This document shows, in pieces, positions 2,290 through 7,713 of a stretch of DNA of 39,469 nt. A program made the translations under genes and the position numbers. Source of the stretch: Gracilibacter sp. BRH_c7a (GTDB lineage: Bacteria > Bacillota > Desulfitobacteriia > Desulfitobacteriales > Syntrophobotulaceae); the NCBI GenBank assembly GCA_001516055.1, contig LOEZ01000032.1, positions 1 to 39,469 on the forward strand, written 5' to 3'. The stretch's first letter is position 1; every line of letters starts with the position of its first letter. A model generated the notes under the pieces. That model was given only the letters and a program-made list of their open reading frames with translations, was not told the origin of the DNA and made no database searches.

Positions 2290-2390
2290 TTTCGATTTCT
2301 TACCGGCAACCCGACTATCAATATGCATAAGCACTTAGACTCGTAGTTTTGCGTCCCTGTTTTTCAACAGGTTTGCTATTATCAGCATGA
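2290..2390 (-). promoter_or_regulatory. c-di-GMP-I (GEMM-I) riboswitch aptamer
   Basis: On the minus strand the leader reads GCAAACC (2370-2376), a CCTGTT-GAAA-AACAGG hairpin with a GNRA tetraloop, GACGCAAAAC, then GAGTCTAA, a variable P2 arm, and TAGTCGGGTTGCC. These are the ordered conserved blocks of the GEMM-I class that binds c-di-GMP. Aligned to the Vibrio Vc2 aptamer, the residue equivalent to G20 is G (complement of 2376). The cGAMP-sensing subgroup carries A there, so c-di-GMP is the expected ligand. The A47-type adenine in GCAAA is also kept. A terminator follows directly. Whether ligand turns the gene off or on cannot be read from the sequence with certainty. Confidence 0.92.
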
Positions 2391-4041: not shown

Positions 4042-4608
4042 TCAGTTAACTTTCAAATAATGTCTTTTTGCTTGAAAATAACTCTCTTGAGTTTCCGGTC
4101 TTACTTGAGGCTGAAAGTAGTAATTATTAAGTGGGTCTGTAGATAATTCAGTGTTGGTTGCAGCTTTTGGGAAGATAGATTCATCTCCCAATCTAGCGAT
4201 CGAATTAGCCGTGACTAAACCATAAAGGGCATTGCACACCAAATAAGATAAATTACTAGAGGAATCTTTAGGTCTTAGCTTATTCTTGGGAAGTGCACTT
4301 TGGATTACTGATATTATACCGCCATACGCTGTCCCATAAAAAAAGCCTTTCGTATTGATATTATCTTTTCCTCTTTTAGATATCATTTCTGTCATAAGTA
4401 GACTACCAAACATACTTGATATTAAGGACATTGATATCCCTAATACTGTCCCTGTTTTAGATTGTGCTTGACGTTTTTCCCCGACCCACGTTCCAGCGGA
4501 AGCATCGGTATAGATTCTTTTCGATATATGGTCGGCAGCTAACATCACTATTCCACCAACTATTCCACTGATAACTCCGAGTGTATGTTTATCCTTAATT
4601 TTTCTCAT
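4042..4608 (-). CDS. uncharacterised small membrane protein
   Basis: 188 residues, unrecognised. Visible features: three to four glycine-rich hydrophobic stretches, including LGVISGIVGGIVMLAADHI, VLGISMSLISSMFGSLLMTEMI and GFFYGTAYGGIISVIQSAL, alternating with basic segments, then a polar tail (about 140-188) rich in N, Q, T and P. There is no signal peptide cleavage site, cysteine cluster or known catalytic motif. The ATG at 4606-4608 is preceded by a purine-rich but weak site (GGGAAGAGAG). It stands alone between a terminator on its left and the noncoding RNA candidate on its right, whose strong terminator lies about 190 bases upstream of this start. It is probably a real gene because it is long and has a plausible composition. 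Confidence 0.65.
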   Translation of the reverse strand: MRKIKDKHTLGVISGIVGGIVMLAADHISKRIYTDASAGTWVGEKRQAQSKTGTVLGISMSLISSMFGSLLMTEMISKRGKDNINTKGFFYGTAYGGIISVIQSALPKNKLRPKDSSSNLSYLVCNALYGLVTANSIARLGDESIFPKAATNTELSTDPLNNYYFQPQVRPETQESYFQAKRHYLKVN

Positions 4609-4790
4609 CTATGCTCTCTTCCCTCATTTCTGGATAAATACTAGACCAATTTGTAAATGCTCTATTACATGTATTGTTCGAATAATAGTCAGTTTTTATT
4701 ACACAATTAGATAGTAAAATTTGTGTAAATATTTTAAATATCTATTGAATAATTTCTTTTATGCAATAACGAAAATTATTAATCAATAAT

Positions 4791-4820
4791 AAAGAAAAAC
4801 CTCTCCGTCAAGCGAAGAGG
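4791..4820 (-). terminator. strong terminator of a minus-strand noncoding transcript
   Basis: Leftward CCTCTTCG-CTTGA-CGGAGAGG (4800-4820): an 8-bp stem with one G-U pair and a five-base loop, followed by TTTTTCTTT (4791-4799). No protein gene lies upstream of it on this strand before 5471. Confidence 0.88.
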
Positions 4821-4841
4821 TGATTTTATATGAGTTATTAA

Positions 4842-5109
4842 TCCCGCAGAGTCCCTCTGAAAAACACGACTTAGAAATCTAACAAAGGTCACCTACTTCA
4901 TGATCAAGAGACACGTTACGTTACAAAACCAGTCTTAATAGATTTTTAACTTGCCATGTTCTTAATACTTATCGGATTCTCGAACTATTGAACTCGGATA
5001 GGAAATTTTAACTTAATTATTTGGTCTCAAAACACGTTTACTATGTGGAAATCCATTGTTTCTGAAACCTGAAAAGAGATAGAAACTTAGTTTGATAGAC
5101 TCTGCGGGA
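4842..5109. repeat. 268-base segment closed by a perfect 12-bp inverted repeat
   Basis: TCCCGCAGAGTC (4842-4853) is the exact reverse complement of GACTCTGCGGGA (5098-5109). The arms are far richer in GC than the AT-rich interior. As RNA they would form a long-range closing helix. As DNA they could be terminal repeats of a MITE-like element, but I see no clear target-site duplication at the outer edges. A second copy is not present in this window. Confidence 0.7.
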
Positions 5110-5125
5110 AACTTTTCTAATATTA

Positions 5126-5150
5126 AAAGCCATCCTTAGCGGGTGGCTTT
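5126..5150. terminator. hairpin with short T run, possible internal attenuator
   Basis: AAAGCCATCC (5126-5135) pairs with GGGTGGCTTT (5141-5150). On the minus strand the stem has one mismatch and is followed by TTTTAATATT; on the plus strand the stem is complete with a U-G pair but is followed only by TTTAATCC. It lies about 115 bases into the minus-strand noncoding transcript, so it may attenuate it. Confidence 0.4.
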
Positions 5151-5269
5151 AATCCGGTCGGTCAACATTCAAAAAACTTTTTCTCTGACCCGAGTCGGAT
5201 TATAAACCAGCCTTTGTCAGGGAATATTGCTCAATGTTTAAACCATTATTTATTACATCAACTAATTAT

Positions 5270-5298
5270 AGTATAAATCTGCCTGATTATTCTGTCAA
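5270..5298 (-). promoter_or_regulatory. consensus promoter reading into the noncoding region
   Basis: Leftward TTGACA (5293-5298), exactly 17 bases, TATACT (5270-5275). The nearest protein start downstream on this strand is at 4608, about 650 bases away and beyond a strong terminator. The expected transcription start is near 5263. The 100 bases on the far side (5299-5412) show nothing I recognise. Confidence 0.8.
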
Positions 5299-5412
5299 CC
5301 AAATAGCACTTTGTAAAATATTCCATTCTTCTTGTAAGGCTGCGTTTCATAATCCTGAGCTACAAATCCCCATAGCAGACTTTCACCACTCATAATTGCC
5401 ATGCAGTGTACT

Positions 5413-5453
5413 AAAAAACCTTCTCCAATCATGAACTCATATTGGAGAAGGTT
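5413..5453 (-). terminator. terminator of the feo operon
   Basis: AACCTTCTCCAAT (5417-5429) pairs with ATTGGAGAAGGTT (5441-5453) in a perfect 13-bp stem. Reading leftward a run of six T follows (5413-5418). It lies 18 bases after the stop of the Cys-rich gene. Confidence 0.9.
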
Positions 5454-5470
5454 CAGTGTTATTGCGGTGG

Positions 5471-5662
5471 TTACTTATCAGAGCAATGGGTGCATTGGGA
5501 GAATTCGGAGGATGGAGAGGATAAGGAGGATTCTGAGCAGACGCTGCACCCGCTGCACCCACAACTGTTGACACCTCTTTTTCTGTCTCTGACTATTTTA
5601 TATGTGGCAAGAGAAATAACCGCAACGAGAATAACAACAACAATTAAATCTACTGTGTTCAT
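5471..5662 (-). CDS. FeoB-associated Cys-rich membrane protein
   Basis: 63 residues: one N-terminal membrane helix (VDLIVVVILVAVISLATYKIV), a basic stop (RDRKRG), then a cysteine-rich tail with CGCSGCSVC and CTHCSD. This matches the small FeoB-associated protein family that often takes the place of FeoC in Firmicutes. Its exact job in ferrous iron transport is not established; the cysteines may bind iron. The ATG at 5660-5662 has AAGGTGA five bases upstream. It lies 35 bases after feoB and before the operon terminator, so it is the last gene of feoA-feoB-this gene. Confidence 0.85.
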   Translation of the reverse strand: MNTVDLIVVVILVAVISLATYKIVRDRKRGVNSCGCSGCSVCSESSLSSPSSEFSQCTHCSDK

Positions 5663-5697
5663 CAAATCACCTTCATCTTTTTACTATTGATTTAGTC

Positions 5698-7713
5698 TCA
5701 TAGTTTTGCTCCTTGCATTCCGACAGATACCTGGGCGCGGCGGCCATTACCTTTTCTCATAAGGTAACCAACATAGCCTACGATGATCATCACAACGATA
5801 AGTCCGCCCATAAATCCTTGACCTAGGGTGCCGACTGTTACTAAAGTACCGATCTGGTAAACAAAGAAAGCTAATGTATAGCCCATTCCCAGCTGGAAAG
5901 CAATTGCTCCCCACAGCCATTTCGGTGATTCCATTTCCGAGTTCATGGCACCAATTGCCGCAAAGCACGGTGGAGTAAAGAGATTAAATACCAGATACGA
6001 CAGTCCTGCAACTGCAGTAATACCGAATATCTCATTTACGTTCGCGCTGCCGCCGATGAGTGCTAATTCTTCCGTATTGATAAAGTTCGTTACGCTAAAG
6101 GTAACCGCTAAAGTTCCAACGACATTTTCTTTCGCGATAAATCCGGTTACGGCTGCTGCTGCAAACTGCCACAGACCAAAGCCCAGTGGAACGAACAGTA
6201 CCGCGGCCGGGTTCGCAATGCTCGCCAGGATACTGGTTTCCGGTGCATTCTCTGCAACAACCTGAAATTGCCAGTTGAATGTTTGTAAGATTTGAACAAC
6301 TGCGTTGCATACCAAAATAATGGTACCAGCTTTAATAATAAACCCTTTTGCTCTCATTAACATGGAGATGGCTGCTTTTTTAATACTTGGCCACCTGTAT
6401 TCAGGAAGTTCCATGATAAAATAGGACCTGGAATAATCTCCTGTAATTTGCCTGATAATTAACGCCCCGATAATGATTACGATAATTGCCAGGAAGTACA
6501 TGGTAGTCCCGACCCAGGCGTTTTCACCGAAGAAAACGGCTGCGAAAAGGGCGATAATCGGTAGTTTAGCCCCGCAAGGCATAAACGGAGTTAACATTGC
6601 CGTGGTACGCCTTTGTCTTTCATTTTTAATCGTTCTTGTAGCCATCACACCGGGGATACCGCAGCCAGTACCCACAATCATTGGAATAATCGATCTGCCG
6701 GATAATCCAACTTTTTTAAAGAATCGGTCCAAGACAATCGCCACACGAGCCATATACCCACTATCTTCCAATAATGCCAGGCAGAAAAACAAAACCATAA
6801 TCAAGGGTAAGAATCCGATAACGGCACCCACGCCGCCAATAATACCATCCAGAAGTAACGCACCGATAACTGGGTTTACGCTTTCGCCCAGCAATGAGGC
6901 TACCCCTTCATACAGCAAGTCTATCCAACCGACAAATATATCCGCAAACCAGGGTCCAACCCATGCTTGGGAGATGGAAAACACCAGGTAGATGATAGCG
7001 GCAAAAATCGGAATCCCCAACCACTTATGGGCAATAATCCGATCAACTTTATCTTGAGCGGTTTGTTTTTCCGAGCTTACCTTTCTTCTCTCTACTTCGT
7101 CGACAATATCGTTGACAAACGTATACCTTTTATTATCCGCTTTATCGAATTCTTCCTTAGTGGAAGCTTTATTAGCACTTCTAATACTCGGAGCAATTTG
7201 CTTTTTGCCGGATTTACCTGCCATTATGACAGTCTCCATCAATTCAGACAAACCGTTATTTTCGGATTTTGTGGATATTGTTTGTATAGCTGGGCACTTC
7301 AGGGCATCGCTTAAGGCTGGAACATTAATGATAGTTCCTTTTTTGTCAATTAAATCACTCTTATTCAGTGCAATAACAACAGGTATCCCCAGTTCCAATA
7401 ATTGGGTAGTAAAGAATAAACTCCGGTTTAAATTTGTGGAATCAACTATGTTAATGATGACATCAGGATTTTCATTTTGAACAAAATCTTTAGTTATGGA
7501 CTCCTCACTTGTGTAAGGCGACATAGAATAGGCACCGGGTAAGTCCACAACAACTAAATGTTCATTTTTGGGGTTAAGGCTCTGTTTGACATCACCTTCT
7601 TTCTTTTCCACGGTAACTCCTGGCCAATTTCCTACATGTTCGATTTTACCTGTAATAGCATTAAACAAGCTGGTTTTTCCGCTATTGGGGTTTCCCGCTA
7701 GTGCAATTTTCAT
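5698..7713 (-). CDS. feoB: ferrous iron transporter FeoB
   Basis: 671 residues. The N-terminal G domain has G1 GNPNSGKTS (7-15), G3 DLPG (57-60), G4 NKSD (117-120) and a G5-like STKS (147-150), followed by a helical insertion domain rich in K and E. The membrane part (about 220-655) holds the Gate-type motifs GTGCGIPGVMATRTI and TPFMPCGAKLPI and about eight helices. The protein imports Fe(II) across the cytoplasmic membrane. At 671 residues it is shorter than the E. coli protein (773), as is common in Clostridia. AGGAGG lies 6 bases before the ATG. It sits between feoA and the Cys-rich partner, all under a Fur-box promoter. Confidence 0.97.
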   Translation of the reverse strand: MKIALAGNPNSGKTSLFNAITGKIEHVGNWPGVTVEKKEGDVKQSLNPKNEHLVVVDLPGAYSMSPYTSEESITKDFVQNENPDVIINIVDSTNLNRSLFFTTQLLELGIPVVIALNKSDLIDKKGTIINVPALSDALKCPAIQTISTKSENNGLSELMETVIMAGKSGKKQIAPSIRSANKASTKEEFDKADNKRYTFVNDIVDEVERRKVSSEKQTAQDKVDRIIAHKWLGIPIFAAIIYLVFSISQAWVGPWFADIFVGWIDLLYEGVASLLGESVNPVIGALLLDGIIGGVGAVIGFLPLIMVLFFCLALLEDSGYMARVAIVLDRFFKKVGLSGRSIIPMIVGTGCGIPGVMATRTIKNERQRRTTAMLTPFMPCGAKLPIIALFAAVFFGENAWVGTTMYFLAIIVIIIGALIIRQITGDYSRSYFIMELPEYRWPSIKKAAISMLMRAKGFIIKAGTIILVCNAVVQILQTFNWQFQVVAENAPETSILASIANPAAVLFVPLGFGLWQFAAAAVTGFIAKENVVGTLAVTFSVTNFINTEELALIGGSANVNEIFGITAVAGLSYLVFNLFTPPCFAAIGAMNSEMESPKWLWGAIAFQLGMGYTLAFFVYQIGTLVTVGTLGQGFMGGLIVVMIIVGYVGYLMRKGNGRRAQVSVGMQGAKL

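Follow-up and report, generated by a model that had tools for sequence, protein, structure and literature searches.

The window analysed here, the whole 39,469-nucleotide stretch of contig LOEZ01000032.1 from Gracilibacter sp. BRH_c7a, was found to contain on its minus strand, between the feo genes and an open reading frame that starts at 4608, an element which is almost certainly a free-standing, conserved noncoding RNA gene. Sequence comparison with its homologs showed an own promoter and terminator, competing helices in a 5′ head, a closing helix with compensated changes, a repeat-prone interior and near-invariant boxes. An earlier note on this DNA had proposed a stand-alone regulatory or structural RNA, and that proposal gains support from the own promoter and terminator, the conserved pairing, the lack of any match in Rfam and the unrelated neighbouring genes.

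A total of 58 elements with core lengths of 205-1005 nucleotides was collected, and three profiles were built, namely R1 for the head (9 sequences), R2 for the 3′ part (sequence only, 10 sequences) and R3 for the hairpin together with the 5′ arm of the closing helix (18 sequences). The following parts were located in the window.

5270..5298, minus strand: promoter of the sigma-70/A type, TTGACA-N17-TATACT, read from the sequence with TTGACA at 5298-5293 and TATACT at 5275-5270
~5263, minus strand: predicted transcription start, placed from the promoter position
5126..5220, minus strand: 5′ head module (CTGAC..GGCTTT) of 95 nucleotides, described by R1, with mutually exclusive pairings
5145..5208, minus strand: candidate alternative long helix, GGTTTATAATCCG (5208-5196) with CGGATTAAAGCC (5156-5145)
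5126..5150, minus strand: attenuator-like hairpin AAAGCCACC..GGATGGCTTT, within R3, with a U tract that is weak here
5094..5109, minus strand: 5′ arm of the closing helix, TCCCGCAGAGTCTATC, with 12 perfect pairs here and 16 in most relatives
4858..5093, minus strand: C-poor interior of 236 nucleotides, enriched in GUU-containing motifs
4888..4898, minus strand: near-invariant box AAGTAGGTGAC, present in 13 of 13 elements of the window's lineage
4842..4857, minus strand: 3′ arm of the closing helix, GAGGGACTCTGCGGGA
4791..4820, minus strand: intrinsic terminator CCTCTTCGCTTGACGGAGAGG followed by a T run, read from the sequence, with equivalents in homologs

The closing helix was found to consist in the window of 12 perfect pairs (5109-5098 with 4853-4842) enclosing 268 nucleotides, and of 16 pairs in most relatives. 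When the mononucleotides of the region were shuffled 1000 times, 20 of the shuffles contained a perfect inverted repeat of at least 12 base pairs; the repeat alone is only moderately surprising, and it is the comparative sequence data that make the helix certain. Among 23 distinct arm pairs, 96.5% of the cells were standard pairs and double-sided changes were found at 5 of the 16 pairs (C-G/U-A, A-U/G-C, G-C/A-U, U-A/C-G and C-G/U-A), and the double-changed cells numbered 13, compared with 3.2 in shuffles (0 of 500), cell counts that overstate the independent events since the collected elements share ancestry. Because this first set had been chosen partly by its complementary arm, the test was repeated on loci chosen by R3 alone, with the 3′ arm unseen. 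All 28 of these 28 loci contained a 3′ arm with 14-16 of 16 pairs at 222-872 nucleotides downstream, and the upstream and shuffled controls reached 11-14. The covariation in the 4842-4853/5098-5109 helix which the earlier note had suggested looking for was thus present as compensatory double-sided changes. Its 268-base domain was borne out as regards the helix; the interior was found to be without a stable fold, which leaves a clamp only.

A promoter with TTGACA-like and TATAAT-like boxes at 16-18 nucleotides spacing was found in 55 of the 58 elements (TTGACA, n=50; TATAAT, n=34; TATACT, n=9), so that the near-consensus minus-strand promoter described earlier is both present and conserved. It lies about 200 nucleotides 5′ of the closing helix, or 45-112 nucleotides in elements with a short head or none, and in the window it is separated from the head by about 40 nucleotides. 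The strong terminator of the earlier description was likewise found, as CCTCTTCGC..GGAGAGG at 4820-4800 with a T run reaching 4791, and an equivalent terminator was present 3′ of the 3′ arm in the homologs. The lack of a reading frame that the earlier note gave for this element was confirmed, its longest frame containing 30 codons, and no open reading frame was conserved across the elements; the longest frames differed in place between elements. Frames of 95 and 110 codons in a few elements were broken in, or not common to, near relatives, and a protein-coding gene was rejected on the ground that frames are broken between close relatives. Folding of the whole RNA gave a z of -2.07, which is weak.

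The head of the Desulfosporosinus lineage (28 sequences) was found to contain P1 (UUCAG/CUGAA) and P2 (GGU-GCGUGCU/AGCAUUGC-AUC), an inner hairpin and a GCCACC/GGUGGU hairpin, comprising 27 pairs with 98.3% of the cells paired and double-sided changes at four pairs (0 of 500 shuffles). The helix P3 (AGCAUU/AAUGCU), which excludes P1 and P2, was paired in 95.2% of the cells with 4 double-changed cells (2 of 500 shuffles). A switch is typically recognised by two conserved folds that exclude each other, and such a pair of folds, as predicted for a riboswitch or an attenuator, was found in the head of this lineage. In the window's lineage, an exclusive pairing of GGUUUUAAUCCG/CGGAUUAAAGCC versus AAAGCC/GGCUUU was visible with weak covariation (9 sequences), and the alternative helix of GGTTTATAATCCG with CGGATTAAAGCC, which would use up the 5′ arm of the hairpin, was paired in 83% of the cells, also with weak covariation. 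The hairpin AAAGCCACC..GGATGGCTTT was nearly invariant, with 99% of the cells paired and one-sided changes only (G-C/G-U/A-U). The overlap of terminator and antiterminator was clear in the window's lineage, in which the U tract is weak, whereas it was unclear in the Desulfosporosinus lineage with its good U tract. The alternative 5′ pairings and the internal hairpin with a T run, both claimed in the earlier note, were recovered: the pairings are present with weak covariation here and good covariation for the equivalent exclusive helices of the Desulfosporosinus lineage, and the nearly invariant hairpin is present with a U tract that is weak in this lineage. Four elements (L008, L020, L169 and L186) were found to be without a head, and their promoter lies 45-64 nucleotides from the helix.

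The interior was found to have a minimum free energy weaker than that of composition-matched shuffles in 18 of 18 elements tested, and mixed, about equal values in comparison with dinucleotide shuffles. It evolves fast, and its C content was mostly 6-16%, reaching 20%. Strand-biased motifs were GTTAG, AGTTA and TCAGT in the Desulfosporosinus lineage and GTTTC, GTTCC and TTCAG in the window's lineage; GTTAG was enriched 7.9-fold and CTAA was rare on the same strand. Tandem arrays were found in some species, such as (GTTAGTTAGGTCA)n in L042 and GTAGATAGTCGTTTAGTTAGTAGGTCGTTC in L047. The arrays of L042 and L047-L049 were observed to differ in length between close species, like a minisatellite inside a noncoding RNA. 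By far the most conserved interior parts were the boxes, of which AAGUAGGUGAC was present in 13 of 13 elements of the window's lineage (0.0 expected in shuffles) as well as in L035 and L036, followed by AGUGGAGGAUUUGUC in 31 and GAGCCGUGUAUCC in 30 of the 45 remaining elements. The sequence GGAGGATTTGTCCAGATTAGTT was found only inside elements in the five genomes scanned.

A DNA search found a full-length relative, 80% identical, in the sister species and partial matches elsewhere in the family. Matches of R3 at an expectation value (E) of 1e-5 or lower were found in 44 of the 74 genomes of the order, many with 2-4 copies, and R2 added three genomes (G009, G021 and G048; E ≤ 2e-6), giving homologs in at least 47 of 74; the E values of these custom models are rough. 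Among the genomes assembled as a single contig, G008, G032 and G034 gave no R3 match. The head model R1 matched once per genome in 14 genomes of the order, with E down to 1.7e-16. Among 398 genomes of the phylum searched, all strong matches were confined to the order. Weak R3 matches across the phylum and class (G129, G112, G136, G446, G164, G215 and G075) were judged to be chance, as they were complementary downstream at 12-14 of 16 positions like the controls; G075, which belongs to the same class as the window's genome, fails the partner-arm test. A pattern scan found both arms in Desulfosporosinus (D. hippei, D. lacus, D. nitroreducens, D. fructosivorans, D. acididurans and others) and also in Peptococcaceae bacterium CEB3, Acididesulfobacillus acetoxydans and related metagenome-assembled genomes. 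Pattern matches outside the order (Lachnospiraceae, Oscillospiraceae, Anoxynatronum, Ureibacillus and others) were rejected as having no partner arm, as were those in viral contigs, none of which contained one. No element was found in the plasmids and phages searched and no relative outside the order in the wider searches; the RNA family, of which this element is to our knowledge the first member described, is restricted to the order that holds Dehalobacter, Desulfosporosinus and their relatives. The window's genome contains one copy and other genomes usually 1-4, which rules out the dispersed repeat that the earlier note had named as a possible refutation. Some copies are in tandem, 700-950 nucleotides apart. 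In L044 and L045, two complete tandem copies of the RNA were observed, with a separate promoter, head and terminator for each copy.

A covariance-model scan against Rfam release 15 gave, at the gathering threshold, only a cyclic di-GMP-I (c-di-GMP-I) riboswitch in the window, far from the element. Permissive scans (E up to 5-10) gave only chance microRNA-, small RNA- and small nucleolar RNA-like matches in 4500-5700 and, in 20 homolog loci, no match beyond a neighbouring 6S RNA and chance hairpins. No Rfam family thus matches the element, and the absence of known RNA signatures stated earlier holds. No description of this RNA family was found in the open-access literature searched, and since that coverage and Rfam are both incomplete, undescribed here means not found in them. 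The element appears to belong to an RNA family of its own, new and with no known relative, among the long noncoding RNAs of bacteria.

The sponge RNAs of the CsrB/RsmZ and CrcZ type come from stand-alone genes, act in trans and expose a short motif many times over, and the new RNA, a stand-alone unit with a motif-enriched open interior, may work in a similar way. It contains neither a GGA-hairpin array nor an A-rich array but GUUAG/GUUUC, a motif different from those of CsrA and Hfq, and it adds the long-range clamp helix and the switch-like head; no sequence relation was found in Rfam. A CsrA-type GGA array and a TRAP-type UAG array were considered from k-mers, and their motifs and spacing fitted poorly. 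Riboswitch-controlled noncoding RNAs such as Rli55/EutX, headed by a B12 riboswitch, contain a switch-like leader before a noncoding body. The new RNA would share this layout, whereas its head matches no known riboswitch and its body is unrelated. The type III antitoxin ToxI is similarly a tandem-repeat noncoding RNA next to hairpins, but in the new RNA the repeats are not obligatory and no conserved toxin gene follows, the downstream genes being unrelated across loci. With 6S RNA the element shares its stand-alone nature and a long-range closing helix around an open region. Identity with 6S was rejected, as no RF00013 match was found at the element and a separate 6S gene was present in 10 of 10 genomes tested (G000, at C7:63507-63689, and 9 others). 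In L039 (419-610, plus strand), a 6S RNA gene was observed a few hundred bases upstream of an element copy. OLE, ROOL and GOLLD are also long, stand-alone RNAs limited to some bacterial groups and discovered by comparison. They form ornate conserved folds and homo-oligomeric complexes by cryo-electron microscopy (PMC12286853), whereas the new RNA conserves only the head, the clamp and the boxes, with an open interior and no match to these in Rfam.

The mechanism favoured here, which as a whole falls somewhat short of being probable, is that of a trans-acting, protein-binding platform or sponge RNA gated by its head. The head would be a transcription attenuator or a switch sensing a ligand or protein, whose folding would decide whether the body is made or exposed. 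By clamping the ends, the helix would protect the RNA and display its interior as an open loop, in which the repeated motifs (GUUAG/AGUU or GUUUC/GUUC) would bind several copies of a putative RNA-binding protein; the RNA would then act as a sponge or an assembly platform, and the boxes would contact one specific partner. Action in trans is expected because neither a conserved neighbour gene nor a conserved reading frame was found. A more tentative extension, to be held with greater doubt, is a new class of multivalent protein platforms limited to a single order of bacteria that respire organohalides and sulfate, each a switch-headed, helix-clamped single-stranded loop grown by tandem-repeat expansion and possibly organising a ribonucleoprotein body. 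Several points weigh against the platform or sponge. Its role is argued by analogy with other systems; the headless elements indicate that the RNA can do without switching; attenuation is least convincing in the window's lineage, where the hairpin has a poor U tract; the interior repeats are weak in the same lineage; and the boxes, being near-invariant, point to a specific contact, possibly by base pairing, which a pure sponge would not need.

The strongest alternative is built on these boxes and is unlikely, though to be taken seriously: an antisense regulator in which the boxes (AAGUAGGUGAC here, AGUGGAGGAUUUGUCCAGAUUAGUU in Desulfosporosinus; candidate pairing boxes AAGUAGGUGAC and AGUGGAGGAUUUGUCC) would pair with target RNAs and the rest would be scaffold. 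Their conservation, by far the highest in the interior, favours it. By inspection, 10 of the 11 positions of AAAGUAGGUGA can pair with the 3′ tail of 16S ribosomal RNA, UCACCUCCUUU, and GGAGG occurs in the other box, so that the RNA might conceivably touch ribosomes or ribosome-binding sites; this anti-16S, Shine-Dalgarno-like match is however short, with one central mismatch, and may be chance. A search of five genomes with the Desulfosporosinus box at up to 3 mismatches found only the complements of the elements themselves, a search that would miss a shorter target, and the boxes differ between the two lineages. A large ornate structural RNA of the OLE, ROOL or GOLLD kind, folding or multimerising into a particle, would agree with a stand-alone unit of several hundred nucleotides with a long closing helix. 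It is improbable, as the interior folds no better than shuffles, diverges freely and expands by tandem repeats, and no match to those Rfam families was found.

Slightly less credible again are two readings of about equal standing. If the head were riboswitch-like and a short attenuated head RNA were the real output, with the body as a by-product, the exclusive folds, strongest in the Desulfosporosinus lineage, would be explained; the four headless elements nevertheless have a body, and every R1 match in the order sits at an element with one. A non-autonomous mobile or selfish element without cellular function would explain the 1-4 copies per genome, some in tandem, and their varying positions. 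Many genomes, however, contain a single copy, the locus is constant within species groups (for example, four Dehalobacter-group genomes, in which the same two upstream genes stand beside the element), no copy was found on a plasmid, phage or viral contig, no enzyme is associated, and promoter, helix, head and boxes are under selection. By far the least plausible is a long leader or cis-regulator of the 4608 gene, or a part of the feo operon, to which the element is adjacent and co-directional. It is set off from the 4608 gene by the terminator at 4820-4791 and from the feo genes by their own terminator-like site, a hairpin with a T run at about 5457-5415, and it is taken as neither because its homologs adjoin unrelated genes; unless read-through prevails, this reading is already refuted. 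The very long leader offered as an alternative in the earlier note was abandoned, as the homologs end in a terminator and a relative of the downstream protein was seen only in the sister species (G001). Loss of pairing beside retained protein genes, which that note had named as a refutation, was the reverse of what was found: the pairing is kept and the proteins change.

The genes upstream in the window encode FeoA, FeoB and a FeoB-associated Cys-rich protein, followed downstream of the element by the open reading frame 4608-4042 (minus strand) for a 188-residue protein with a weak, below-cutoff DUF5518 match. No conserved neighbour gene was found across the element loci, and the flanking genes, mostly co-directional, were unrelated between groups; by inspection of translations they included a short-chain dehydrogenase, an M42-like peptidase, an ABC transporter and cobO-like and thiE-like genes. 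At about 5320-5415 of the window (minus strand), directly after the feo terminator-like hairpin, a degenerate sequence like the 5′ end of a group II intron, GAGTGGTGAAAGTCTGCTATGGGG, was seen by eye, and better copies were seen by eye after the RNA terminator in L005 and L006; L024 gave a weak group-II-D1D4 match. Homologous open reading frames resembling a group II intron reverse transcriptase/maturase were observed 127-296 nucleotides downstream of the element in L005, L006, L011 and L030, and their position directly after the RNA terminator in four genomes is consistent with terminator-targeting introns. In L026 (1646-1745), a strong palindromic hairpin soon after the terminator, which matches microRNA-hairpin models by chance on both strands, is perhaps a miniature inverted-repeat element. 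The c-di-GMP-I riboswitch of the window (2302-2387, minus strand, 74.9 bits) lies just upstream of a protein with GGDEF and HD domains (586-2259), which is probably an enzyme of c-di-GMP turnover and seems to be controlled by c-di-GMP itself.

About two thirds of the genomes in an order with important dechlorinating and sulfate-reducing bacteria carry this long RNA gene, whose make-up of a switch, a clamp, an open repeat loop and invariant boxes is unusual, and isolates with several copies exist. Should many copies of a protein be recruited by the repeat loop, the RNA would offer a bacterial example of multivalency gained through repeat expansion.
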